This document shows, one piece after another, positions 2,581 through 47,089 of a DNA stretch of 64,000 nt (within the stretch, counting starts at the first letter, position 1; each line of letters starts with the position of its first letter). Position numbers and translations under genes: made by a program. The notes beneath the pieces are model-generated. The model ran no database searches. It was not told the DNA's origin and was given only the letters and a program-made list of their open reading frames with translations. Source of the stretch: Phlegmacium glaucopus. Lineage: Eukaryota > Basidiomycota > Agaricomycetes > Agaricales > Cortinariaceae. The stretch covers positions 2,722,555 through 2,786,554 of the forward strand of contig MU130378.1 in assembly GCA_015039465.1 (NCBI GenBank). The letters are read 5' to 3'.

Positions 2581-2615
2581 TCCTCATCCATTGACTAATT
2601 GAAATAACAATAGCA

Positions 2616-4051
2616 ATGAAGCTCATGTACCTTCCTACATTTTTAGTTCTTACTTTCGTCTCAACCGTCTCCGCCTTTCCAGCCTATGGATCGCTTGCTG
2701 GTCTTTCCATCGAAGAGCGGGACCTCATAGTTTCTACACTTCAAGCTCGCCATGCTGAGCCTCCCCCTGGGCCGCTGAATGACACATCGGCGAAACTCGT
2801 CAATGACAAGGACCATCCATGGAAGCCTCTTCGACCAGATGACATCCGTGGGCCTTGCCCAGGATTAAACACCCTCGCATCCCATGGTGTACGTCCAGCT
2901 CAAAAACAAAAAACCATTTTCAATCTTGTCTAATTTCTTGCTTTTCAGTGGCTTCCGCGCAATGGCATTGCTACCCCTGCACAAATCATCAACGCAGCCC
3001 AAGACGGTAACTTATTATAATAAAGTTTTACGGGATTGAATTTAGCTGACTCGATACCTACTAGGATTTAATATGGGGAATGACCTCGCCGTCTTTGTCA
3101 CTTACGCTGCATTCCTCGTGGATGGCAATATGATCACCAATCTACTCAGTATCGGTGGCAAGTCTCATAAAACTGGACCGGACCCTCCTAAGCCCGCTAT
3201 TGTCGGTGGGCTTGACACCCATGCCGTTTTTGAGGGTGCGCTGGCCTATTTCGTGTTCTATTATGCCGAGTTACTGATAAACGTCATGATCCAGGTGATG
3301 CCAGTATGACCCGAGGTAAGGAAGAATCCTGTTTCATGAGTAAAAGAAAGGGACGCTGAATGAAAGTGCCTTGTTTAGGTGACGCATTCTTCGGTGATAA
3401 CCACAGTTTCAATGAAACACTCTTCGATGAGGTAAATAGTTATTTCCTGAGTTTACAGAAGTTCAAGCACTGACGGACTTATTCACACAGTTCTCCGATT
3501 TCAGCAATCGATTCGGAGCCGGTAACTACAACGTCACGGTTGCAGGGGAATACAGATCCCGGAGGATCCAAGAATCCATCTCCACAAATCCTCAGTTCTC
3601 CTTCGTCGCACCTCGTTATTTCACCGCATTCGCCGAATCCGTATTTCCATTCCTCTTCTTCGTAGATGGACGCGTCTCCGATGGTCAACTCAACTTAACC
3701 GTTGCACGCGGATTCTTCCAGAACAGCTCCATGCCCAATGGTTTCTTCCGTGCCAATAGATCCCTTGGTCTCAATGAGATTGGAGGTCCCATCCAGACCG
3801 TATTCGACGCTCACCCGATCCAACCTGGCAAAAACGAAGGTGGCGTTAACAACTTCGTCTTCGATCCAACTTCAGCCAGTTTCACCAATGATGGGTGTTT
3901 GTTATACACCAATTTCGTGAACCAGACTGTACGATCTTTGTACCCCAACCCGACTGGTGCTCTTCGCGATGCTTTGAACTTTAATTTGGACAATTTATAC
4001 ATTCCAATCAGTACCTCGGGGTGTCCGCAGATATTCCCGTTCGAGAAGTGA
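2616..4051 (+). CDS. Unspecific peroxygenase (heme-thiolate peroxidase, chloroperoxidase family), 6 exons
   Basis: Exons: 2616-2888, 2949-3006, 3065-3235, 3295-3315, 3379-3431, 3491-4051; product 378 residues, the length of the long-type UPOs (AaeUPO-like). A signal peptide ends near SAFP (residue 20). Key residues: PCP with the axial heme Cys81; EGD at 167-169 (Mg and heme-propionate site); the acid-base pair Arg234 and Glu241 in RYFTAFAE; FSNRFGAG; and two C-terminal Cys (DGC, SGC) at the positions of the known disulfide. Exon 4 is only 21 nt and encodes the residues right after EGD, so it is easily missed by gene finders. UPOs are secreted enzymes that oxyfunctionalise aromatics and alkanes with H2O2. 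Several N-x-T/S sites fit secretion. No lesion seen. A broken relative lies at the left window edge, so the family has been locally duplicated. Confidence 0.93.
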
Positions 4052-10570: not shown

Positions 10571-10678
10571 CTAATCCGGAAAAGCGTTTGTCCAAATTTA
10601 GTTTGGGACCTTTGTCGTTCAACCTCATATGGAACCTCCTTTGTCTCTCTGCTCTCTTCTCGCAACTTCAGCACCGGG

Positions 10679-10687
10679 TATAAATAA
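10679..10687 (+). promoter_or_regulatory. TATA box of peptide gene A
   Basis: TATAAATAA about 100 bases before the ATG of peptide gene A. Equivalent elements precede copy C (15716-15725) and copy D (18991-18999), and a weaker TATTTAAAG precedes copy B (13220). Spacing of about 85-120 bases to the ATG is shared. Confidence 0.55.
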
Positions 10688-10783
10688 TATAACAGCAACT
10701 TGGAAGAAGATGCAAAGCCCCTCGCCCACTCTTCCCACTTCCGAGGTACCCCAATCCTTTTGCTTTCTCTCTAAATCCAGAAA

Positions 10784-11059
10784 ATGCAATTCCAACTTTA
10801 CACAACCTTTTTGCTGATTTGCCGTGCGTTACAAAAAAATCTGTCTCTCTTTCTTGCAGTTGCTAATTGATCTTCCAGTGACAACCCTTGTGTCAGCTGC
10901 TCCAGTACCTTCAGTGGATGTCGAACTTCGTGATAACATAGTGAGTAGCTAACTAACGCTACACTAAAACATGCAAATTCATTATTATCACTTTAGGTCC
11001 GCGATCTCCAAGATAACGACGTCCGCGAGCCTACTTGCTACAGGTTCCTATGCGAGTGA
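10784..11059 (+). CDS. Small secreted cysteine peptide precursor, copy A (54 aa, 3 exons)
   Basis: Exons 10784-10823, 10879-10940, 10997-11059. The precursor starts MQFQLYTTFLLI and has a signal peptide with likely cleavage at VSA|APVP. An acidic spacer (VDVELRDN, then VRDLQDNDVREP) follows, and it ends CYRFLC-E, a C-X4-C pair one residue before the stop. Intron 1 splits the signal peptide in phase 1 (donor C|GTGCGT); intron 2 is phase 0 and puts the spacer end and the Cys ring on exon 3. The same structure recurs in three more copies downstream. I recognise no known family. A role as secreted signal, effector or modified peptide is inference only. Confidence 0.7.
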
Positions 11060-13345
11060 TTCAACATGGCCAAGAACCCTACGCTACCCACGATTCCTGA
11101 CCTTGGAACTTTTTGCATTCCTCGTGTCTGGGTTTCTACCAACAAAACTCGCGTCCCTCCCGCTCTCATCCAAGAAGCCTCCTAGATTGTTTCCACCGTC
11201 CTTTTCTCCAATTTTTGGTCACAACCCATTCTACAAACTCTCTTCACGATCCTTACTTCGCATCGTTGACCATTATCACATTCGTTACGTTCCTCGACCT
11301 CCTTCGCTTTCCACGCTTCTTCGGCCGCTATGAACGGGACTTATCCCACTCAGGCGATTGGCGCAATTCGTAAAACCCGAGCTAGGGCATTATACCTTTA
11401 GACATACGTGCGCGCACTTTACAAGTCGGGATGTCCAGTTGCCGATGCCCGATTTCACTTAGACTTCACAGTCGCAAATTCTATCGATTCGAAAATTTCC
11501 AAGGCCACGAAGTCCTAACACATTCTTTTGTATTTTCGACACATCACATCTACCGTATCGATTAGCGTTTTCGGTCTTGATATCCTTTTTTTTTGGATAT
11601 CCAAATGTATACCAGCATTTTTCGCTTTCTTCGGATTCTTCGGATTACATATTTAAATCGTTTATTTAAACGTTAACACTGTCATATACTTACATACATA
11701 AAAACCTTTGTTGTATTTGTAGCTGCAATTCTGTTTTCGCACCGCTATCAAGTTGTCCTGACACCAATGTTATGGTACTCAAAATTTTCTGAGAGCTAGC
11801 GTGAAATGTGGAGATGTAAAAAAGAACTAGCCAGCCGAGACGAGTTACAAATGATGCATTTCAGGCAGATTGACAGTCATTGATGATAGAGTTGCTTTGA
11901 AAATTTCTTCCAGTCCCTAAGCACCTAGATACGGGATTGCTCTACAGCCGAATGTTGACAAAAGTGACAGGCACCCGATACTACATTAATTAATTATCGG
12001 AGGATTTAACTAAAATGCTTACCTGCACTGCAAGACCCTACAAATTTCTACATTGAGCTTATGTACATTGGCCTATGTAAAACCAACCAACCAAGTCTCC
12101 TTCCAGACAAATTTGGGCTGCCATATTTCAGCGACCCCATTATTCCATCTCAGCAATCCATGCAATTGTCCTACGCTAATATCGCAGACGCCAGGGAACT
12201 GAGAAGACGAAAGATGCAATCTTCACGGGATAAGCGCCCGCAAAGGTGGCTACCTCCAAGCAGCTAATTAAACTCCAACAGGTTTCGTTTGAGGGGGGCG
12301 TGTTGGAATATCAAGCTCGGTGTTGTCGTCATCATCGTGTCGTGTTGCATCATTAACCAATAGCGTTATGTACTCGTACTAGTGTACTTGTACTACAGTT
12401 GATTTTCCCATAACCCATAGCGGGGTGGCATTTCGGCTATGCATTAAGAGGAGCGTGACAGATAACACAGATAAGATTGTCGTAATTAAGAACCAAAAAA
12501 TCTGTCGAGCGTCACCTGAGTCGATTTACTCATGCCTTCGAGCTCTGAATTTCCGGAGCTATTTGGTCAAGTCAAAACCCAGTTCCTGAGTAGCTGCAGG
12601 AATGAGTAAGCATGGGGGTCTGGGAATGCAAAAAAAAATTTCTTCGGTTTTCCCCTGCCAATATTTTACAGCTCCATTAAACTGGTTTGAGTGGGCCGTT
12701 GCCTTCAGCATGGCAGATCTGGGTTCTGTCAGATCAATTGTTGAACAGATATCTTATGATATTATTAGGGAGCTCACTTATCTGCATTGTAACGCCAAGA
12801 CTTTTGTTTTATGGGGTCGTTCGTGTTCCTCCAAGCTTTCTAACTGAATTCCTAGGGCTCTGTAGATGATACCTGTTAGTTTCGAGACATTTGATGGAGT
12901 GAAAGATGGCGGAGACGGGCAGCCAAATGTTGGCACTTCTGCTGAGTTTGAAATACAATTGCCTTCGCAGTGCAAAGTCCGAGATCCGAGAACTATATTC
13001 AGAAGCTGACCGGCTAAACCCGCACGAATAGATGCCAACCCATTTGATTTTGCCCAGGTTGTAAGGCCGAGTGCCCAATACTGAGAAGCTAGAACTCGGA
13101 ACGCCACAATGATTCAGCGCTCAGCGCTCAGCATTTATATTTACCAATCCACTAATGCATAATTGGCTCAACTGACCTATCCATTATGCGTTATGACTCG
13201 CATAGCCATGGGACATATGTATTTAAAGTAGACTGTTGGAGCTTCCCCCACTTAAAATAATTCCTTGCCTTGTGCCCAGCGATCTATTCATCAAACCGAC
13301 TTCAAATTTCTACACTATAAGCCAACATCCAGCATTTCTAACAAC
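11060..13345. repeat. Array unit between peptide genes A and B
   Basis: It holds the conserved 3' region (CACGGCCAAGAACCCTA-like, then TTTGCATTCCTC.TGTCTGGGTTTCTAC and a C/T-rich tract), a block at 11675-11890 (repeated at 13998-14185 and 16457-16655), a block at 11935-12090 with CCCGATAC.ACATTAATTAATTATCGG (repeated at 14235-14360 and 17045-17145, and inverted at 18350-18455), and a block at 12500-12675 (repeated at 15200-15365). ORFs in these blocks shift frame between copies, so I read them as non-coding. Confidence 0.7.
12676..13100. other. Segment present before copy B but absent before copy C
   Basis: Flanking repeats are continuous at 15365 (TTACAGCTTCATTGAACGCCACAATG) but are split here by about 425 bases. 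The segment is either an insertion in this unit or a deletion in the other. A minus-strand ORF of 109 residues (13107-12778) covers it. I do not recognise the product, and no terminal repeats stand out. Confidence 0.45.
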
Positions 13346-13648
13346 ATGCACTTTCAACACTTCACGACCTTTTTATTGATCTGTAAAGAAATTTATCAAA
13401 AACAAACTGTCAACAATTATTGTTAACTGAAACTTTTTCCAGTTACAGCCATTGCGTCTGGTGCTCCAGTACCTCCAGTGGAGCTCGAACTTCGCGAATA
13501 TGGAGTGAGTATTTGATTAACATTTGATTATACTAAAAATGTGAATTAATTATCATTACTACTGTAGATACACGCAGTCCGGGATGAAGTCGTACGCGAG
13601 CCATCCCCTATGCCATATCCTGGTTGTCGTGAGGAATATTGCCAATGA
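13346..13648 (+). CDS. Small secreted cysteine peptide precursor, copy B (59 aa, variant ring)
   Basis: Exons 13346-13382, 13443-13504, 13568-13648. Leader MHFQHFTTFLLI..TAIASGAPVPPVE and spacer LELREYG, IHAVRDEVVREPS match the other copies. The C-terminus differs: PMPYPG, then CREEYC-Q. The interior of the ring has changed completely from (Y/F)RFL to REEY and four residues are added before it, yet the C-X4-C spacing, the single trailing residue and the stop position relative to the conserved 3' flank (TGATATAACACGG) are kept. Splice sites are in the same phases as in copies A, C and D. Confidence 0.7.
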
Positions 13649-14776
13649 TATAACACGGGCAAGGAACCCTAAAGCTACCCCACAATTTTTTGACCTTTTT
13701 TTGCATTCCTCTTGTCTGGGTTCTACTAGCAACGAAATTTGCATCCCCTCCCCCTCCCCCCACCCACTACAAAGCCTTCAGATTGTTTCCAAACATCCTA
13801 TCCCGTCTTTCCCATTTGGTCACAACCCGTTCTGCGAATTCTCCCTCTCTCTCCCCCCCCCCCTTTTTTTTTCCTCCCTTTCGCACAAGTTGTCTATGTA
13901 TCCACGTTCATTAATGTTTCCCCCTGGCTCTTCTGTTTCTTTCGCCTCTTGTGAATAGCTTGCACTTCTATAGCCCGAGTCTGGGCATTGATTGAAACAA
14001 AGTAAATACTTACATACTTAAAAACCCCTGTTGTACTTGTAGCCGTAATTTTGTTTTCACACTGCTTTCAAGCTGTCTTGACATCAATGTTGTTGTACTG
14101 AAAAAAATTCTGAAAGCTGACGTGAAAGATGGAGATGTAAAAAAAGGATTAGCCTGCTTGAGACAAAGTACTAGTAACGGTCATTGATGATACTAAGAAC
14201 AGAGTTGCATTGAAAATTTCTCTCAATCTAAATACAGGATTGCTCTACGGCCGAATGTTGAAAGAGTGATAGGCGCCCGATACTTACATTAATTAATTAT
14301 CGGATTTAACTAAGATGCTTACCTGCACTGCGAGACCCTACGACCTTCTACATAGAGCTATGTACATTGGCGATAACAACCTATGTAAGACCAATGTTTT
14401 CCAGTGCGTTTTAGATATCATCATTAATTGCAAATGAATATTAATGAATGGTGGCAACTTGATACCAGGACCCCAGAAAAGGGCGTATCCCAATCCGGAC
14501 AGAAATAGCCCAAAGTTTAGGTACGGCCCGAGTCTCCTTCGGAACAAATTTGGGCTGCCGGCCCCATCAATATTTCAGCGACCCCATTATCCCATCTCAG
14601 CAATCCATGCAATCCTACTATGCTAATATCGCAGACACCAAGGAACTGAGAAGATGAAAGATGCAATCTTCACGGGATAAGCGCCCGCAAAAGTGCTATC
14701 TCCAGCAGCTAATCAAACTCCAACAGGTTTCGTTTGAGGGGGCGCATTGGAATATAAAACTCAGTGTTGTCGTTAT

Positions 14777-14803
14777 CGTGTCGTGTCGTGTCGTGTCGTG
14801 TCG
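14777..14803. repeat. GTCGT microsatellite
   Basis: Five copies of a GTCGT unit (cgtgtcgtgtcgtgtcgtg) in the spacer between copies B and C. Confidence 0.7.
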
Positions 14804-15809
14804 CATCATTATCAGCTAGAGGACGACTGACCAATAACGTTATGTACTTGTACTAGCCGTACTACTAGTATGTCAAGTTGCTGTACTATGGTGTGCGGTA
14901 AATGTAATCAAGAGATGACTCAGGTCCTCAGGAAAGGGAAGAGAGAGATATAGAGAAGGATCTTGGTGATATTCCGAAACCGCAGATGATCGAGAAGGTT
15001 TAGTACAGCGTAGTGGCATTTCGGCTATGCATTATGAGATTTATGCATTAAACCCGGATTTGTCACGATTATGTGACCCATGTAGCAAGGAGACAGATAA
15101 CACACTGGCAGATAAGATTGTCATTATAAAGTCGAGCGTCTACTACGCCGTCTAGGACGCTTTGCCCATTTTGACGATCTGTCACAGGTCTATCGAGCAC
15201 CACACAGGTCTATCGAGCGTCGCCTGAGTCGATTTACTCATGTCTCGAGCTCTGAACTTCCGGAGCTGTTTGGTCAAGTCAAAATCAGTTCCTGAGCAGT
15301 TGCAGGCACGGGGGTCTGGGGATGCAATTTTTTCTTCGGTTTTCCCCTGCCAATATTTTACAGCTTCATTGAACGCCACAATGATTCAGTATTGTATTTA
15401 CCAAAGACCTAGGTAGCATAAAGGGACAAAATTGTACGAGGCGGGTTCCTCATTTCTGACTTGTCCTGAGTCACGGTCCTCCTCATTCCGACCAAATTCC
15501 GACTATTCCGCTCAGAATGTGTGAGGGAAGGTAAAGTATTGATTATTCTTGTCAGTAATAATTAGTCAGATGTCTTTTTCCGAGTCATCAAGGTGGATAA
15601 TACAATATAATTCGACATGTCAGCCCCCCAAAAAGCTGACAGACTGGTATGCTGACTTCTTCATATCTGTGTATATATGTCAATCTCGAGATTTCCGAAA
15701 GTCCTCCAGAAATTTTATATAAATACAAGAACAGCAAGCAGAATGAAAAGTGCAAAAAGCATCATCACCCCCCATCCCCGAGAGAAAACCCATTCTCCTA
15801 TCTAGGAAC

Positions 15810-16097
15810 ATGCACTTCCAACGCTACACAACTTTTTTATTGATCTGTAAATAAATTGATCAAAAACTAATTGTTAACAATTGTTAACCGATTTTTTTTC
15901 CAGTTACAGCCATTGCATCAGCTGCTCCAGTACCTCCAATGGAGGTCAAACTTGAACTTCGTGAATATGGAGTGAGTATTTGATTAATATTTGATCATGC
16001 TAAAAAAGTGAATTAATTATTACTACTGTAGATACGCGCAGTCCAGGATGAAGTCATACGCGAGCCTCGTACTTGTTTCAGGTTTCTGTGCGAATGA
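15810..16097 (+). CDS. Small secreted cysteine peptide precursor, copy C (56 aa)
   Basis: Exons 15810-15846, 15904-15971, 16032-16097. Leader MHFQRYTTFLLI..TAIASAAPVPP, spacer MEVKLELREYG and IRAVQDEVIREP, terminal ring CFRFLC-E. Compared with the others, exon 2 has two extra codons (VK..LE duplication). A TATATAAATA box lies 85 bases upstream. No lesion seen. Confidence 0.7.
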
Positions 16098-16657
16098 TAT
16101 AACACGGCCAAGGAACCCTAAAGCTGCCCCACAATTTTTTGACCTTCAAAACTTTTTTGCATTCCTCTTGTCTGGGTTCTACTAGCAACGAAACTCGTGT
16201 CCCCTTCCCCCTCCCCCCACCTACTACGAAGCCTCCAGATTGTTTCCAACCGTCCTATCCTGTCTTTCTTGTTTTTGGTCACATGAACTCTCTTCCTAAT
16301 TTTTAATTCTCCCTCTCTCTCTTCTCCATAATCTCCTTCCTTTCGCACAAGTTGTCCATGTACCCACGTTCATTACCGTTTCCCCTCGGCTCTTCCATTT
16401 CTTCCAGCTCTTGCGAACAGCTTGTACTTTTATAGCCCGAAGTCTGGGCATTGATTTAAACAGAGTAAATACTTACATACATAAAAACCCTTGTTGTATT
16501 TGTAGCTGCAATTTGTTTTCGCACTGCTTTCAAGCTGTCCTGATATCAATGTTGTCGTACTCAAAAAAAATTCTGGAAGGTGACGTGAAAGATGGAGATG
16601 TAAAAAAAGAACTAGCTTTCTTGAGACAAAGTACTACTACTAGTTACGGTCATTGAT

Positions 16658-16984
16658 ACAGTGTATACGACTCAGGCAGATGACGATGTGTCGCTGATCT
16701 TGGATGCTCGCCATCGACTTCTTTTGACACTCCGGCGAGTCTGCCGGTTAGGCGCCGCTGGGTTTGGGTTGGGCTAGTAATTGGTTAGGATTCTGTTTAG
16801 CGTTAGGGGTTCGCTTTAGTGGTTCGCGTTCAGGTTGGCGGTAGGGTTAGTGGGCAGGTATATCTCCAAGTTTTCGCGCGGTCTTGGGTAGATTAGGTGG
16901 TTAGAACTCCGGCTGCCATGAGGCAGCCGAAGGGCGGTGTGACAACTTCCTCCATTTGGGGATGTCGAACGGCGTATATCCTCT
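16658..16984. mobile_element. 327-bp insertion with hAT-like features (non-autonomous DNA transposon)
   Basis: The sequence is absent from the matching place in the other array units, where GTCATTGATGATACTAAG is continuous. Here it is flanked by two copies of CATTGAT (16651-16657 and 16985-16991; 8 bp if the preceding T is counted). Ends ACAGTGTATACG and, inverted, AGAGGATATACG match at 9 of 12 positions. It has no ORF. The target length and small size suggest a hAT MITE. Confidence 0.6.
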
Positions 16985-17349
16985 CATTGATGATACTAAG
17001 AGAGTTGCATTGAAAATTTCTCCCAATCCCTAAGCACCTAAATACAGGATTGCTCTACGGCCGAATGTTGATAAGCACCCGATACTTATATTAATTAATT
17101 TTCCTGCACTGCAAGACCCTACAAGTTTCTACATAGACCTTGTGTACACTGGCGATGACAACCTATATAAGACGTTTCTATAGTGAATTCCTGATCGGCA
17201 CCCGATCATAAAAAAATAGATATCGTTAACTACAAACGAACGTTGAACTAGCAACATTGATACCAGGACCCCAGAAAAGGGCGTATCCCAATCCGGACAG
17301 GAATAACCCAAAATTTAAGTATGGCCCAAGTCTCCTTCGGACAAATTTG

Positions 17350-18190
17350 TGGTTAGTAAGGACAGCCATCGTAAATAGTGTATGTAGTGTGGCACTGTGG
17401 CAAAACGAAAAAAAAAATTTGAGTGTGGGTTTCAATCGTGTATATTTTGACCAACATGGTCCTCACAATTCCTTCTAAGGCACCCTCTATCGAGCTCTTG
17501 CGGCCTATGACACGATTTCAGGCACTTCAGCGTGGCGGGAAAGAATTTACGGCCGCGTTTGAAAGTTGAAACTCTATCGAAAGTGGAGTAAGGATTCCAG
17601 TGAAGATGAGGGTGAATAGACTATGGATAGCCTAGAGATATATTTGGGTGATTGGCAAGAGATTTATATCGAGTTCAGATGCCGTTATCGTCGATAATAG
17701 CCGTAGTGTGCACTACCAATGGAGGAGCCAGCAGTTTCCGAGGGACCGGAGTATCTGGGTTTTCGTCATTTGGCCGCTTTTTGGTCCGTTTTTTGTTGGT
17801 GGGGTGGTGCGTAATTGTATTTGGAGCTTGATGCGGTCGATGAACCGAGTTGAAGTTGGATGGATGTAAGATGTTTGTTGCCAGGTAGTAGAGATTTGTT
17901 GATACGGTGTCCTGAAGAGGGGTTTCTAGTATTAAAATGGTATTAAAGATGTTTTAGATGCATATTGGGGTGTTTTGCTGTGCGACGGAGACCAAGAAGC
18001 CATTGAATTCTCAATAATCAACCGACGCGACGGGCACGTGTCCTCGTTTAGCAGAGTCACATGATATGTGTGCGTGTGGTACGGTTTGATGTGTGCAACT
18101 AAGAGCAGACTCCATATGAAAGAGATCGACCCATCATTAACTGATTGTTGATAGTTTACGAAGTCTGCCGTAGTACGGGAGATTAACAGT
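17350..18190. other. Unassigned segment inside the array
   Basis: Not shared with the other units. ORFs at 17648-17869 (plus) and 18213-17932 (minus) have no recognisable product. I see no terminal repeats. It makes the C-to-D spacing about 0.8 kb longer than the other units. Confidence 0.35.
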
Positions 18191-18350
18191 AATCTGGAAA
18201 AGTGTTTGTCCAAATCTAGTTTGGGATCTTTGTCGTCTACCTCATAATATTATGGAAGCCCCTTTGTCTCTCTGCTCCCTTCTCGCAACTTTAGCGCGGG
18301 GGTATAGATAAAATAACAGTGACATAGAAGTAGATGCAAAGCCCTCAGTC
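18190..18350 (+). repeat. Orphan copy of the promoter region of peptide gene A
   Basis: It matches 10570-10720 (GAAAAG.GTTTGTCCAAAT, CCTTTGTCTCTCTGCTC, GGGTATA-A-A) but is then joined to an inverted copy of the CCCGATACTTACATTAATTAATT block. No coding part follows: a fifth, broken unit. Confidence 0.65.
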
Positions 18351-19101
18351 TCCTAAATACGGGATTGCTCTACGGTCGAATGTTGAAACTTGTAGGGTCT
18401 TGCATTTTAGTTTAATTCTCTGATAATTAATTAATGTAAGTATCGGGTACCTATCACGATCATATCATTAACTACAAACGACTGGTATTGAACGTTGGAC
18501 TGGCAATATTGTCAGTGATACCAGGACCCCAGAGTCACTACCTAATCCGGATAGAAATAGCCCAAAATTTAGGTATGGCAAGGCCCCAAGTCTCCTTCCG
18601 GACAAATTTGGGGTTAGTACACAAAGACAGCCATCTCGAATTCCGGACATAAATAGTGTGTCGCTGTGGCACTTGCAAAGCGAAAAAAATAATTGTAGCC
18701 TGGGTTTCGATCTTGTATATTTTTGATACCATGACAATTTATCTTATTCTGAATTCATGTTGTTTCGGGTGCTACAAACATTCTGAGAGTGGCGAGGCAG
18801 TATCCACCAAAATGGATATTCTATACAGAAGGCCCCAATGGCTACTACCCGGGGTCCATTGTTACCACTGGCAAAACAAGGGGTTACAAAATACAAAGTC
18901 ACAAGTGTTCTTCATGCCTAATCCGGAATAATCCTTGTCCACTTCGTCCGACTAACTTCGGTTGGCAGTCCCCTTGTCCCTTCACCACTTTATATAAATG
19001 CAAGAACGGCTCAGCATGAATCAAAAGTGCAAAAAGCCCCATCGCCCCCCATCCGATTCTCTGAGAGAAAAACCATTCCATTCCCTACTTAAACTATCTA
19101 A

Positions 19102-19384
19102 ATGCACTTTCAACATTACACAACCTTTTTATTGATCTGTAAAGAAATTTATCACTTTTATAAAAAATTGTTAACTGATCTTTTTTTCCAGTTGCAGCAA
19201 TTGCGTCTGCTGCTCCAGTACCTTCAGTGGAGGTCGAATTTCGCGAGAATGGAGTGAGTATTTTGATTAACATTAATTATACTAAAATGTGAATTAATTA
19301 TCATTACTGCTGTAGGTACGCGCAGTCCAGGATGAAGTCGTACGCGAGCCATCTCCTAATTGCTACAGGTTTCTGTGCCTGTGA
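19102..19384 (+). CDS. Small secreted cysteine peptide precursor, copy D (55 aa)
   Basis: Exons 19102-19138, 19192-19253, 19316-19384. Leader MHFQHYTTFLLI..AAIASAAPVPS, spacer VEVEFRENG and VRAVQDEVVREPSPN, terminal ring CYRFLC-L. The ring is the same as in copy A, but the last residue is Leu, not Glu. TATATAAAT lies about 103 bases upstream. No lesion seen. The C-terminus is not a CaaX box, so a farnesylated pheromone is not supported. Confidence 0.7.
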
Positions 19385-20102: not shown

Positions 20103-23100
20103 CTACCTAATGCACTTCCACCATGACCGATTATACCCATGACGACGATCATTATCTTCTTCTCTAACATTATTCTCCCGAATGACTTTAAGAAACACAC
20201 TTTCCAGCGTTGCCTTCTCAACTGTATACTCCGTAAAATCATCATGGCTGGATAACGCATTGAAGAGTTGCGCAAGCGACAAGCCGTTCTCTGATTCGAT
20301 AGGCACTTCGAAACGTGTCGCTACATCATCTGCCATGCGAGATCCAGGGATTAATGCCATCAACGCCCGAGCTTTGACAACTTCTTCACGTGTTCGGCAG
20401 GTGAAATGGACTTCGTATGCTGCATAACGAGCAGATAATGATTCAGTGCTACCCACAGCTGCAAGCAGGAATCGATAAATCAGTCATCTGAATTTGAAAC
20501 ATCTTATGTTCACTCACCAAGCATTTGTTTAGCTAAGATACCAACACTGTTGGCCAGCGCAGATGCTTCTTCCATGGAATCTGGAACGAAACATAAAATA
20601 AATATAGGGACATACCTACATAAAACAGAAAACTCACGAGTTGTAATGATCACAGCTTTGCCTCTCGCCACCCTCCGTAACGTTTGCCACATCTCTCGTT
20701 TCATCTTAGGATCAATTCCAGTAGAAAACTCATCAATCAGTAAAACAGACGGATTTCCAATAAGTGCAATAGCAAGCGAAAGTTTTCTCTGGTTTCCTCC
20801 AGAAAGTTTGCTAGCCAATCGATCAGCGTACATATTCAAAGCAGTATCTTCAAGTATGGCTTCAACACTTTCGTCTAGTTCTTGACCTTTACGTAGTCCT
20901 TTAAGTCGTCCATAGACAATCAAGTGTTCTCTGACGCTGAGTTGGGAATCGATAGCAGTGAACTGAGGGCAAACTCCAAGAGCAGAACGGGCTGTCCGGG
21001 GATGTCGAACAACGGATATGCCATCGATGAGCACATCGCCTATATCTGGCACGACATCGCCACCTACCAAACAAGGTTGTCATTAGGATGAATCTAAGCC
21101 TCGGGGATAAGACTGCATACTCACGGATGATATTAAATGTAGTCGTCTTTCCAGCACCATTTGGTCCAAGCAGAGCAAATAAAGTATCTCTGGGTACCCC
21201 GAGGCTGACGTCGTCGACCACTCGTTTACTATTGTACATTTTTGACACATTGAGGACCCGGAGCAAGTCGTCAGAGTTAGACACTGCATTAGCAGCAGCG
21301 ACAACATCTTCCTTAGAACACGATACTGATTCACTTCTTGAAGAAATTCCTTTGCGAGGACGCAAACGTCGCGGAGCCAGAGATCCCGAATCCGCCCATA
21401 CAAGTATTGAAAGTAGGACGAACGAGTAGACAAACAGATAGAGGATAGGACCTCCAAACTGCTTGATTGAGCCCATTGCAGTTGTGTTGACTATGCTATT
21501 CCCCTCGCACAACAAAGAGAACATGTTGATGGAAACGAGGGCAGCACGAAGCTACTCAGATTATTGATTAATATCCGAACGCGATAACCATATAACTGAT
21601 GAACTTACCACATTTGCCACTGGTGCAACTATTGAAGTAGTAAAATGTATGATCGTGATCAAGCTACTGGACGCCGTTACTTTTCCATAAGTAACCACAA
21701 GCAGAGGCGAGGCCAAGTAAAGCTGTTAAATCAGAATCAGAATCTGGCAAGGAGTCGAGTGATATATAGTACTCACTACGCTTATGAGGAACTGATACCC
21801 AGCGGCTGTGGCAAAGGCCGCGAGAGGTGATGGGACTATTAAAGAAACGCAATACGAAAAGAGGGCACCCGCGAATCCATAGAGCACGAAGACAACCCAC
21901 TGTAATACTACACTTAGCTAGTTGAACACCTATCAACAGTGAAAAAAAAAACCCACCAAAAAGCCCAAACCATGGAACTGATTGGAAACCGCGGCAAAAA
22001 TGATAATAATGATAGATGAAAGTACAATGGACCATATGACATCGAACATGAGATGTCCCAACCACAGACCGATCGGATCCGTTAGACCATTCGAAAATTG
22101 CATGGCTTGTACGGATGAACGACGTTCCTTGGTGGCATAGAGCGCATAGAAAGCAGTGTGTACGGCCTGAAATTGTCAGGTGTAAACGGTAATAGATAAA
22201 AAAGGTATTCAAGACCAAACTCACCATCGCAGCCCCGAAGATGATGACCCATCTCAGGGAAACAAGGGTACCTGCGTCTACTGGAGGGAAACTTGCATAA
22301 TTGGCCTGAATAAGAATAGGTGTCCGTGCTGCATTTCCCGACACATTCAGAGCACGATTGTAAAGAAGGTTCGTTGCCAGGTTCAGCATAGAAAGTCCTG
22401 TAAAACCAGGCGGTGAAGCTTCCCAAGCTATCAAGGAAGCGCCAGTGTTTACGTCAAACGAAACACCACCCAAAGAAAGGTTAAAGAAGTTTTGAGAAAT
22501 ATAATTGACGAAGGTGGCATTATCAGGGACATTTGTGATTTGGAGGGGGTTAGTGCTGTTGCCCAAGGCAGCCACAATGTTAGGAGGTGAAGCGACCACG
22601 CTAGGCGGCGGAAGTTCAATGGTAGGAGGGACCACTGGCACTGGCGGGGAAGGAAGGTACAGGGGCATGGATGTAGTGTTCAGGAATCTCACTGAGCACG
22701 ATGCGGTTTCGTTACTGATGAAGACAAGAGGGATGGTGGCCCCGGCGATTGCAACGATCACGGTAAGCACAGGCGTCAACCAACTTCGCTTCAGGATCAA
22801 GGTACGTTTATAGAATATAGTAAGTGCCTGTTGGAAAGGCGACATTGGTCTGCCAGTTGGTAAGTCCATTACGGCGGCTTTGTCTTCAAGATGAGGTGAT
22901 ATAGCACCCTCAGAAAGTTTCTCAGAGTCGTCTGGGATGTCATTCTTGCTCATGAGATCCAGAAAGATATCCTCAATCGTTGTCCCAAGGATGTCATAGG
23001 AAGCAATCGCATGGCGGTTTGTTTCATTATCTAGCAATCCAAGAACTTGGCGAACGACCTCGGTGTCCTTGGCTTTCAGATGATAACAGAATTGGTTTGG

Positions 23101-25846
23101 AGTAGGCATTGTGACATATGTGTGCGGTGCAATGGTCTTGATGCCCAACAGAAGTTCGTGTCTCGATGGAGTATCTATCTTCTCGGAGTCGGCAGGGGGT
23201 GTAAATGTAACCTGTATTGAGTAACCTTCACCCAAGTCACGCTTGAGAGCAACAGGAGGCCCCGAGGCAACAACTTTTCCAGGAGCCGCAAGAATCGCTA
23301 TGTGGTCGGCTAGTAGGTCTGCTTCGTCCAAGAACTGTTGACAATCCCCTCTAAATGCTAGGTGGTGGTAAAGAAACATCGAAAAAAACGCACATGGGTA
23401 GTAAAAACGATGCATCGGTCATCACGGAAAGATGTTAAAATCTTCCATAAGGCCCTTCTACTGAGAGGATCAACTCCGGAGGTACACTCATCCACAAGCA
23501 TGACTGTAAGATGGGGGGTAAATAAAACGCAATATGTTATTGAGAGTGAATAACAACATACTCTGAGAACCACCCAGAAGCCCAATAGCCAACTGCAACT
23601 TCCGTTTCTGTCCACCAGAAAGTGTAGCAGCATTGGAATGGATTTTCGTTTCCAGATCACAATCACGCAAGAGTTGCTCCAAGTCTTCATCCGCCAACGA
23701 ATTCTTAGACCACTTCACAGCTTTCCACACGCGCAGAGTTTGTAAACAGGTGAGTTCTGAAAACAGAACATTCTTCTGCGGCACGAGGCCCAAAGTCCCG
23801 CGAGGAGGTCGAGGAAGTCCACCTTGAAATGTAATTGTTCCACTGGTAATGCTTGAAAGACCTCCAATGACTGACAAAGCCGTTGACTTCCCCGCTCTTT
23901 ATATACAGCGTAAGATGATGGATAAAAACCCCTACAAGAAAGGTAACTCACCCATTAGACCCCAATAATACGAAAATTCCTGTTTTTGGAATATCAAGGC
24001 TGAGATCTGAGACTGCAGTAACATCTCCTTTCGAGGTAAACATAGAGGTTTTGTAGGTCTTGGTTAAGCCACGAATCGAGATAGCGACATCTTCAGGCAA
24101 TTGGGGTGTTTCCTCGCTCATTGTTCGCTTCTTCCAAAATGCCCAAGATCTCTTCGACGGCACACTAGCACCATACAAGTGTCTCTCCCAGAGAACTGCG
24201 AGATAAGGCCATAGGAAGACATCAATCTAGGCAAAATTTTAAGCCTCGTGAACAAAAAACAAAGTCATCAAGAGATTGGCTTACAACAGCTGCGATTATC
24301 AAAGGAAGAAGCACAATGCCTCTGTCTGGGTCACCTTTTAGAACATTTGTCGCGAGTTGATGATTCTCATAGCCACAGATGGCCTTGAGAGCAAAGATGT
24401 AGAAGGATGGCGGAAAGAGAAGGGAAAATATGAAAAGGGTGCCGGATTGAGAGGATTTTAAGACAAGAGCAAGGATGGCGAAGACTAGTCCTAAGAATGT
24501 CGAAGCTACAGCAGCCAAATGAGGGCTTTTCCCGAAAGGAGCGGAAACAAAGAACGACCAGCTGGCAAGAACTAGTCCCAGCAGAAGGTGGACGACGACG
24601 ATGAGGCCTGTATTTGATTCGGTAAAGATACGGAATTTCCATGTAAGGGCCACAATGATCCAAGCAGGGAGGTAAGTGACAGAAATACTGATATACCAGG
24701 ACCTGCGAGTATATTTGTCAGGTTGAAGCGAGATGGGAAAAAATAACTATAAAAAGTGAGGTGCGTACAATATTCTAGCAGAGTCCAGAAGTCCCATTGC
24801 TCTCATGTATTCCGTGATAAGTGTAGCACGTTCCCCTGCGACTGAACCAGGAAGTTGATATGCAATTCCGATAAACGTTACATATCTGCAATTGTCAAAT
24901 TACATCAGGTATCGCAGGTCATAGGAAGTGCGCTTACAAGGCTATTGCCAAAAGCTGCCGAATTCCTCTGATAAAACCTGAAATACATAGGTTAGAAAGG
25001 TTTCTACGCGAGGAAGTCAAAGTAACTGACTTAAACGAATCCTTGTCGACTGCTCTTGGTTCGTTTCTCTAGTAAACGGCCATTCTAGAGGTATTTGTTG
25101 TTGGACGCCAGTTTGAAGTTCGATAATAGCCTGTAAATGCCGACGGTCAAGGATGACAAAGAACGAAGACAGGGAGAAAAGTTACCTGATCAATCGCCCA
25201 TTGCAATGGCAATATCCGCATCTCGAAATCGCTGGTATGGTGTTTTACGTCTATGAAAGCCAGAGCTCCATCCCCAAATATCGTATAATTAATTGGGTTT
25301 GACGCGTTACCATCAGCCGGAATGCTGGTGAAGGCAACGGCAGCAAAACATTGTGAAAAGGAGCGGAAATTTTGAGGACAAGTTGCAGGTATATCCAATG
25401 GACTCGAGAGTTGCTTTACAGATGTAAGCTGATTGGGGGTAAAGTTCGTTGTTATATGGGATATGATTTCCTTCGGAGTCGGATTGCTGGTTCCATCTGT
25501 TCCGTCTGCCCACACCAGAGTAGTTTTGCCATCGAATCGACTTTGCAAAGAAAATATGGATACGGGTGTTCCGAGGCCAAACTATATCTTGAATTAACGA
25601 TATGTGAAGAAGATTTGAGAAATGAATAACATACATTGTTTTGTCTAATGAGAAAGGACTGAGCAGTGGCGAGAAACACTCCAAATGCAATTGGGAGGAT
25701 AACGCAGCGCAATATGTTCAACTGTGTTTATGGGATTGAGGTCAGAGGCAGAACACAGTGCAAGGACATACAATTGAGTGCTTCGATAACACGATCCAAT
25801 TTTTCCAGAAAAGGGCACGAAACTGTAGCCAGAAGATCTGGGCCAT
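20103..25846 (-). CDS. ABCA-type full-size ABC transporter, 18 exons, 1593 aa
   Basis: Exons on the minus strand: 25846-25772, 25721-25635, 25581-25186, 25130-25031, 24977-24938, 24885-24769, 24702-24285, 24226-23952, 23896-23562, 23503-23394, 23334-22225, 22166-21957, 21899-21777, 21722-21609, 21551-21125, 21063-20638, 20580-20518, 20458-20103. They sum to 4782 nt with no frame break. Layout is (TMD-NBD)2. NBD1 has Walker A GSNGAGKS (about 501-508, split by intron 8), LSGGQKRKL, Walker B VMLVDECTSGVDP and H-loop FTTH. TMD2 has a long Pro-rich extracytoplasmic loop. NBD2 has GPNGAGKTT (about 1303), LSGGNQRKL, LLIDEFSTGIDP (Phe where Pro is usual after DE) and TTH. N-terminus MAQIFWLQFRALFWKNW and the cytosolic WKKR segment before NBD1 are ABCA-like. 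ABCA proteins move lipids; the substrate here is unknown. All catalytic residues are present. Confidence 0.9.
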
Positions 25847-44767: not shown

Positions 44768-46261
44768 TTAAGCAATGTCCTTGTTGCGTCCACCTCGACT
44801 GTCCACCTGTGCTTGTGTGTTGTTGTTTGCCCCGGTACCAGGGGGTTTGTTGACCCAGTTCTTCAGCTCCTCCTCCTTGTCCCTGCATGGCACGGCCAAG
44901 GAATTCCCATTGATGTCGACCTGCACTTCCAGCTTCTTTTCCTCTCCCACATCTCCTTCAAACTCCCTGTTTCCCCCATTGTCCTCGCCTCCTGCCTCCT
45001 CTTGTCTACACCACTCCTCCTCTAGTGCCTGCTGTGTCTCTTCCAGCTCTGTTCCTTTCCTGGGTACGAATAGCCTTAGCCTCCTTGAGCTGAACCTGCC
45101 CGCTATGGGCAATCCCTCTAAAGTCTCAAGGTAGAAGGAATGGAGGTTTTGCCTTGTGATTTGTTGCGGTGCGGAGAATTTTGGCATGAGTTTCCTATCT
45201 GTGCTAACCATGAAATCCAGATCGCTCCTATAGACTTGCACAAGGTCGCCTATTCTGAGAATGACCTTGCATGGCGGTTGAGCCAAGACCCACTTGTTGA
45301 ATGCTGCTTTGCGTTTGGAGGCATGTTCAAGCATGTTAGCATACCCTTCAAACCGCTGTTGGTCGATGTATGCCATCTGCATTTCTATTTCATCATCGGA
45401 CGGTGAGGCTGATATGTTTGCAGGTGGTGTTGGCCTTGTGTTGACAACCATGCCAAGGAGGAGTTCGTTAGGTGAGTATTTCAGATTTGGGAGGATCCTG
45501 TTGTTGATGTAGTGTACGGCGGCCTCTAGGTGGTCTGGCCAATCAACTGGCACTTCCATCCTCGCATGCTCATCTTCCCCCAAATCCGGCGCACACATCC
45601 TCTTCAACCATTCCAGCAAGATTGTGTTTGTGCCCTTGAGTAGTCCATTGACCCATGGTGAATATGCTGGGCAGATCTCCAGCTTTGTTCCTCTGCTGGC
45701 ACACTCATCCCTCAGCTCTCTATTATTGAACTCAGGTCCTCCATCCACCATTAGTGTCTCGGGCGCTGTGAAGATGTCGCATATATTGCCAAAGCTCTTC
45801 CTCGATGACTTGCCGGTAGCTGCTGATTTTAGTTTTGTTACCCATAGCCATTGCGCATATAGGTCCATCCAAAGCCCCAACTTTGTGAAGCCTCCTTTTC
45901 CTCTGGGCATCAACAGTGTGTCTGCCACCATGAGCTCGAATAGGTGCCGCCTTGTTATAGGCTCTAGCAGGGAATGCAGGTGTGTTGCACCAAAGCTTTT
46001 ACATTTTCCGCAGTCCATAATTGCCTTCACAATAGACTGGTCCATCTTGGGGCTTGTGATTTTATCCAGTAGTTTTGCCTTGATGTTGTCCCTGTGGAAA
46101 TGGCCGTGATTACGGTGTTCCTCCCAGGCAAGTGCTGTTGTTTCCTCCTGCGTCACACATTCTAACCATGCCCTAGCCCTCGACGATCCATCCCCCACCT
46201 TCCATAACCGCCCCTCCTCTATCATATACCCTTTTGCTTTGTGCCACACCCTCTTCTGCAT
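44768..46261 (-). CDS. Gypsy integrase (catalytic Glu replaced by Lys)
   Basis: 497-residue open frame. An N-terminal HHCC zinc finger (HRNHGHFHRDNIK.. and CGKCK) is followed by the DDE core: Asp in VADTLLMPRG and Asp in LMVDGGPEFNN; the third site reads WVNGLLKGTN, where family members have Glu before Gly. The change corresponds to GAG to AAG at a CpG (CTCGAG to CTCAAG), so the enzyme should be dead. The chromatin-binding tail is Glu-rich. It may still be fused to RNase H upstream via a disrupted junction at 46262-46381. Confidence 0.8.
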   Translation of the reverse strand: MQKRVWHKAKGYMIEEGRLWKVGDGSSRARAWLECVTQEETTALAWEEHRNHGHFHRDNIKAKLLDKITSPKMDQSIVKAIMDCGKCKSFGATHLHSLLEPITRRHLFELMVADTLLMPRGKGGFTKLGLWMDLYAQWLWVTKLKSAATGKSSRKSFGNICDIFTAPETLMVDGGPEFNNRELRDECASRGTKLEICPAYSPWVNGLLKGTNTILLEWLKRMCAPDLGEDEHARMEVPVDWPDHLEAAVHYINNRILPNLKYSPNELLLGMVVNTRPTPPANISASPSDDEIEMQMAYIDQQRFEGYANMLEHASKRKAAFNKWVLAQPPCKVILRIGDLVQVYRSDLDFMVSTDRKLMPKFSAPQQITRQNLHSFYLETLEGLPIAGRFSSRRLRLFVPRKGTELEETQQALEEEWCRQEEAGGEDNGGNREFEGDVGEEKKLEVQVDINGNSLAVPCRDKEEELKNWVNKPPGTGANNNTQAQVDSRGGRNKDIA

Positions 46262-46381
46262 GCGCAGGCTCTTCCCATGGTCGAGTTCCAGCAGTGAGTC
46301 GATGATGTCTATGAAGACTTTTTCATTTGCAAAACATGTTTGTAGAGCTGCGTACGTGGACTGTAGTTGTGTTGCTTGGAT

Positions 46382-46987
46382 TTAGAAGACATCATTGGCA
46401 AGTTTGGTGCGTGCCTCCAAGTCCTTGCTTACAGTCCATTCGTGACCATCTCCTGACTCTACAGGTAGATTAACAAACTTGCAGCTGAGACCGTCAGCCA
46501 CAACACTGAGACGTCCCAGCCAGTGGCGAACATCAATGATATTATGGGCCAGGACTGCATTGTGCCATCTGGCATGGGCCGAGTTCAATGTTGTGTTGAG
46601 CAGGTGGTTGTGAAGGGCTTGGCAGTCTGTTTCAAGTTCTACTGGGTACCCCCATATGACATTGCCAAATTTGTCTAAGCTGTGTTTCAAGGCTCCAAAC
46701 TCAAGAATAAAGGGCTTGTATTTCTCCTCTGTGGCTGATGTGCATTTCAATGCGAACCCTATAGGGTAAGTGGTTGTCTTCTCTGTTCCATTTGGGAGTA
46801 TGGTGGTGAACTTCTGTGTCAGCATTCCAGCAAAGCCGTATTTACAGCTGTCGGTCGTTACAATGAAGGGTGTCCCATCGTACTTTGGCCCTTTAAGTAC
46901 CAGCTCACTTGTCAAGGCCACTTTCAACCTCAGGAATGCATGGTCATGCTCTCTCTTCCATAGCCCAGCTAATGAGAACCCTTTCAT
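46382..46987 (-). CDS. Gypsy RNase H region
   Basis: 201-residue frame with the RNase H-like start IVTTDSCKYGFAGMLTQ, the central Glu region (FGALKHSLDKFG) and ETDCQALHNHLL, matching the RNase H of Ty3/gypsy elements. It is separated by stops from RT upstream and from integrase downstream. Confidence 0.75.
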   Translation of the reverse strand: MKGFSLAGLWKREHDHAFLRLKVALTSELVLKGPKYDGTPFIVTTDSCKYGFAGMLTQKFTTILPNGTEKTTTYPIGFALKCTSATEEKYKPFILEFGALKHSLDKFGNVIWGYPVELETDCQALHNHLLNTTLNSAHARWHNAVLAHNIIDVRHWLGRLSVVADGLSCKFVNLPVESGDGHEWTVSKDLEARTKLANDVF

Positions 46988-47089
46988 GGCCCAGGTATAT
47001 GCTGCCTTCCCTTTAAGCTTGGGCAGTTTGAGTTTTTGTGTGAGGTCGGTGAGCGGCTGCGCTATGGATGCATATCCTTTTATGAGAGG

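Follow-up and report, generated by a model that had tools for sequence, protein, structure and literature searches.

A tandem array of four three-exon genes in Phlegmacium glaucopus encodes candidate precursors of secreted cysteine-ring peptides

Background

Among animal hormones, urotensin II and vasopressin/oxytocin are C-X4-C ring peptides with a six-residue disulfide ring, and in urotensin II and the peptide related to it the C-terminus is C-X4-C-X. In yeast, the pro-region of the alpha-factor begins AP. The alpha-pheromone precursors described in PMC6339444 carry a single copy of the core in some species and two cysteines in some groups. The same account mentions some basidiomycete KEPs that clearly show the STE13 motif, which is presented in PMC9769878, for alpha-pheromones, as repeated XP or XA pairs behind a KEX2 site, with X often Asp or Glu. 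KEPs are defined in a section of PMC7329392 by at least three repeats between dibasic sites, and KEX2 sites are dibasic by definition in the surveys cited here. For C. cinerea precursors produced in P. pastoris, PMC9769878 describes products apparently cut after a single Arg, together with removal of XA/XP pairs. Here we describe a locus in a mushroom genome that shares parts of this layout.

Results

The window, a stretch of 64,000 nucleotides at C144:2722555-2786554 of the 60.5-Mb genome of Phlegmacium glaucopus (Agaricales, Cortinariaceae), contains at 10784-19384 on the + strand a tandem array of four genes in the same orientation, spaced ~2.5-3.3 kb apart and each with three short exons. 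The gene models are given below with the TATA-like boxes.

g1, 10784..11059, + strand: exons 10784-10823, 10879-10940 and 10997-11059; 54 aa, C-terminus CYRFLCE
g2, 13346..13648, + strand: exons 13346-13382, 13443-13504 and 13568-13648; 59 aa, C-terminus CREEYCQ
g3, 15810..16097, + strand: exons 15810-15846, 15904-15971 and 16032-16097; 56 aa, C-terminus CFRFLCE
g4, 19102..19384, + strand: exons 19102-19138, 19192-19253 and 19316-19384; 55 aa, C-terminus CYRFLCL
TATA-like boxes, read by eye: g1, 10679..10686, + strand; g2, g3 and g4, starting near 13220, 15716 and 18991

All introns are GT-AG, with identical phases in the four genes (intron 1 in phase 1, intron 2 in phase 0); a splice donor of g1 lies 3 nt further on than in the other genes, with one residue extra. 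Re-derived from the sequence, the features that the original prediction had given for this family were all found: a common leader resembling a signal peptide, APVP, an acidic spacer that ends (V/I)REP, the splice phases, the TATA-like box and the 3′ flank. The C-X4-C-X-stop ending was likewise confirmed in 4/4, with three rings of the form C(Y/F)RFLC (CYRFLC in g1 and g4, CFRFLC in g3) and one CREEYC (g2). TTFLLI, APVP and REP are among the invariant segments, and the leader holds a hydrophobic stretch in every protein (mean Kyte-Doolittle 2.25-2.60 over 11 residues), with small residues preceding APVP. The description as a tandem family of putatively secreted precursors that share a conserved leader, with the core replaced in one of them, is borne out, and g1-g4 are in all likelihood real genes; on sequence grounds, their products are predicted to be secreted, to form a disulfide and to have a biological role.

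With g4 DNA as query, the genome yielded the other three genes of the array, with E values of 1.8e-80, 3.0e-76 and 1.1e-28, so the similarity within the array is beyond chance; the g4 protein matched at the array places only. The ring pattern had 31 matches in the whole genome, compared to 25 for the reversed control, and the ring pattern with a stop codon had 9, compared to 1, three being array genes in each case. The six non-array matches of the latter kind showed no such leader in same-frame upstream sequence (introns not considered). The leader pattern matched eight places, comprising the four array genes, a relict on contig C24 and three others that had no C-X4-C-X-stop within 500 nt.

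The family had been thought too small for gene finders and possibly undescribed. This does not hold for g2, whose protein is identical, with the same splice model, to an nr hypothetical protein of Phlegmacium glaucopus (P0001, BYT27DRAFT_7190359); it may hold for g1, g3 and g4, which were not returned by protein database searches, P0001 being the only match. The search with g3 alone was empty and yet missed P0001, with which g3 has 13 five-residue words in common, so that this search was insensitive; the search with g1 alone was also empty, and there a miss of P0001 is expected, with only 2 such words in common. Within their limited reach, the protein database searches found no relatives outside Phlegmacium glaucopus. 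Among the papers listed from the open-licence PMC literature, none described the family, and the ring strings and the locus-tag prefix BYT27DRAFT had no match. The g4 tail, compared with PDB sequences in search of an animal-hormone or other relative, had no match up to E 10.

Across the four genes omega was 0.47 (lnL -520.29 vs -524.11 at omega 1, best kappa tried; 2 delta lnL 7.6). By part, it was 0.26 in the signal region and 1.33 in the spacer, with kappa fixed in the null of these sub-tests, and the spacer value is not distinguishable from 1. In pairwise comparisons, gaps were multiples of three in 9/9 coding cases vs 11/34 noncoding cases (Fisher p 0.0003, the pairwise cases being non-independent; 0.011 when four events are counted). 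Each of the four genes retains its frame, start, stop and splice dinucleotides. A neutral simulation that used substitutions only and started from g4 reached this outcome at frequencies of 0, 0 and 0.0006 (5000 runs) under three sets of assumed branch lengths. In the same simulation, chance alone kept both cysteines in every one of the four genes in 1.6-9.1% of runs. With intron ends left out, intron vs exon identity was 81/93 vs 145/164 nt for g2/g3, 79/88 vs 148/166 nt for g2/g4, 74/86 vs 142/165 nt for g3/g4 and 57/75 vs 128/162 nt for g1/g4. Introns thus resemble one another as closely as exons do, which means that the copies are either young or homogenised, that the selection test has little power and that nucleotide conservation alone cannot single out the coding parts. 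Taken together, these comparisons provide what we regard as moderate evidence for selection on the array genes.

Array units have been both gained and lost, as seen from a decayed copy and a promoter-only remnant. The decayed copy, on contig C24, matches over 58 nt at 83% identity, with a local alignment score of 119 against g1 (maximum 35 among 40 shuffles); where the start codon should align there is none, and the second cysteine of the ring is missing. The remnant lies inside the array and runs directly into array 3′-flank sequence.

18190..18344, + strand: what is left of another array unit, promoter only, matching the g1 promoter (10572-10720) at 83% identity

Both, like the annotation of g2, are additions to the earlier picture of the locus. 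The 3′ flank of g3 also holds a 326-base insert at 16658-16983, absent from the matching g2 flank and bounded by the 8-base direct repeats TCATTGAT (16650-16657 and 16984-16991), which looks like a small mobile-element insertion.

The ring of g2 differs sharply from the others. Between the cysteines, g2 matches g1, g3 and g4 at 1/12 nt each, whereas these three match one another at 9, 10 and 11 of 12. The binomial chance that independent point changes remove so many matches is 3e-10 (background difference ~11%), for a site chosen post hoc, and the g2 loop more likely arose through one replacement or through frameshifts in a pair than by point changes. In a search for a donor of the g2 ring, its 21-base stretch had a single occurrence in the window; the whole genome held one exact match and two matches with 3 mismatches (control 0), compared to a hand-estimated chance expectation of about one for 3-mismatch matches. 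As the other three rings are alike by descent, g2 is the only gene in which a swapped core between fixed cysteines can be seen. Of the diversifying peptide family that had been proposed, the conserved leader and the one replaced core remain; there is a single swap, and the analysis does not establish a spacer omega above 1.

The best clue to how these proteins may be processed is a feature missing from the original prediction, namely X-Pro dipeptides between the conserved Arg and the ring. The Arg is followed by EP-T-ring in g1, EP-SP-MP-YP-G-ring in g2, EP-RT-ring in g3 and EP-SP-N-ring in g4, which by plain count gives 1, 4, 1 and 2 pairs, the first being EP in 4/4. A single short duplication may account for the additional pairs in g2. 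In-silico removal of X-Pro yields TCYRFLCE, GCREEYCQ, RTCFRFLCE and NCYRFLCL, that is, 8, 8, 9 and 8 residues despite Arg-to-Cys distances of 3, 9, 4 and 5, a register likewise read by plain count; three of the four products are X-C-X4-C-X, and g3 is out of register, with RT ahead of its ring. Dibasic sites (KK/KR/RK/RR) are absent from all four proteins, which have single Arg only, and other Arg residues of the spacer could be cut as well. Genes of the kexin and DPPIV types are present in the genome: profile searches placed P_proprotein matches at two places (C237 and C242) and a set of DPPIV_N matches, taken as one gene, on contig C27. The PF02116 (STE2) profile had no match in the genome, but none in any control genome either.

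These observations suggest a route of maturation like that by KEX2 and STE13. Signal peptidase would remove ~19-20 residues, judging from the hydrophobic stretch and the small residues ahead of APVP, and the acidic spacer would serve as pro-region. A kexin-type protease would then cut behind the conserved Arg of (V/I)R-EP, and a dipeptidyl aminopeptidase of the STE13 type would strip X-Pro pairs (EP in g1; EP-SP-MP-YP in g2; EP in g3; EP-SP in g4) until none are left. The two cysteines would close a six-residue ring, exposing a four-residue loop as the gene-specific specificity part, quite different in g2, and the ring peptides would act extracellularly, with signalling from hypha to hypha or at the surface of roots as the likeliest role. 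That g1-g4 are precursors of secreted disulfide-ring octapeptides matured in this manner is the reading we tentatively prefer, giving it somewhat under an even chance; the likeness to alpha-pheromone maturation is a coherent hint.

Discussion

Several other explanations were weighed against precursor processing. The first is that these are small orphan secreted proteins that act whole, ~35 residues long once the signal peptide is removed, for example as effector-like proteins toward tree roots, the ring being a stabilised tail. No Pfam family lies above cut-off for any of the four proteins (a bMG3 match in 1/4 members, E 0.077, was taken as noise), and the lack of a dibasic site fits as well. 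Secreted orphan proteins of <300 aa are the usual SSP class, which is given as enriched in ectomycorrhizal fungi in the relevant section of PMC4649063, and species-specific, symbiosis-induced SSPs are described as common in a part of PMC7550596. The acidic spacer is less constrained, with omega not below 1, which would be odd in an active portion, and the X-Pro run ahead of the ring is left unexplained. We consider whole-protein action possible, although on balance unlikely.

It is improbable, to a further degree, that the array is young or fading and without present function, its recent tandem copies having frames that have not yet decayed. The equal similarity of exons and introns would agree with this, as would the turnover seen in the C24 copy and the promoter-only remnant and the failure of searches of limited reach to find a relative elsewhere. 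It is opposed by the intact frames and splice sites in 4/4, the frame-keeping gaps and the omega below 1.

A cyclic RiPP, a dikaritin or similar, in which a dedicated enzyme instead of a disulfide cross-links the ring, would match the conserved leader, the variable core and the Tyr in 3/4 rings, and the window holds a Peroxidase_2 gene ~7 kb from the array among the following neighbours.

703-1584, - strand: GDT1-type cation/proton antiporter gene (Pfam scan)
2595-4051, + strand: Peroxidase family 2 gene, at least two exons
20510-25717, - strand: ABC transporter gene adjoining the array; it has two ABC_tran parts, and its ABC2_membrane_3 match is weak and below cut-off
44768-47089, - strand: retrotransposon remains, with integrase (below cut-off) and RT RNase H domains

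The Pfam scan of the window covered 30/101 stop-to-stop frames of at least 100 aa, and a short-exon enzyme gene could escape it. UstYa (DUF3328) has 15 matches in the genome and none on contig C144, which leaves the suggestion of an enzyme-modified RiPP of that kind without support from this contig, and repeats and dibasic sites are absent; we give such a product only a slight chance. ABC transporters export a-type pheromones; nothing ties the transporter gene at 20510-25717 to the array. Prenylated a-type mating pheromone precursors of basidiomycetes, with which the size and the tandem arrangement would agree, are refuted on the CaaX end, since the Cys is second and not fourth from the end in 4/4, and are further opposed by the signal-peptide-like leader and by a nearest STE3 match 406 kb away on C144 (others on C127 and C240), leaving them a negligible probability.

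If the preferred reading of g1-g4 as processed precursors is followed further, the array could be a mushroom-evolved set of disulfide-ring octapeptide hormones built on one pro-leader. Its X-Pro run would bring a dipeptidyl peptidase to the same end point however long the spacer is, and its loop could be exchanged as a whole while the cysteines stay fixed, g2 being the example. This larger proposal is speculative and we hold it to be doubtful. A family of processed precursors with one core each would show that screens for KEPs, built around repeats and dibasic sites, overlook a class of agaric peptides. The predicted products are defined (8, 8, 9 and 8 residues) and easily synthesised, and their four exact masses allow a direct test.

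Of the known systems, the mycorrhiza SSPs/MiSSPs resemble the array proteins in that the latter are tiny, putatively secreted, orphan and from an ectomycorrhizal genus. At 54-59 aa they fall, if secreted as predicted, within the SSP definition (<300 aa, as worded in PMC4649063), which describes a size class and not a family. The Agaricomycetes KEPs with STE13 motifs are alike in the secreted precursor, which is a prediction for the array, in the XP/XA pairs ahead of the core and in the apparent single-Arg cuts described for P. pastoris in PMC9769878. In contrast to KEPs, the array has one core per gene in several genes, and since it lacks repeats and dibasic sites, its genes are not KEPs by definition. 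Ascomycete alpha-pheromone precursors resemble the array proteins, in which signal peptide and cut site are putative, in having a signal peptide, an acidic pro-region that starts with AP (as in yeast alpha-factor), a basic cut site with XP pairs and a short C-terminal peptide. They differ in that the array genes have a lone Arg where a dibasic site would be, one core at the extreme C-terminus, a six-residue ring and a basidiomycete host. The likeness is one of layout and not of demonstrated sequence relation. With the animal C-X4-C ring hormones the likeness is of shape only, without homology. If the hormone proposal is true, the array would offer a fungal counterpart in shape to those hormones, reached via the alpha-pheromone pathway and in a phylum that uses a different type of mating pheromone.
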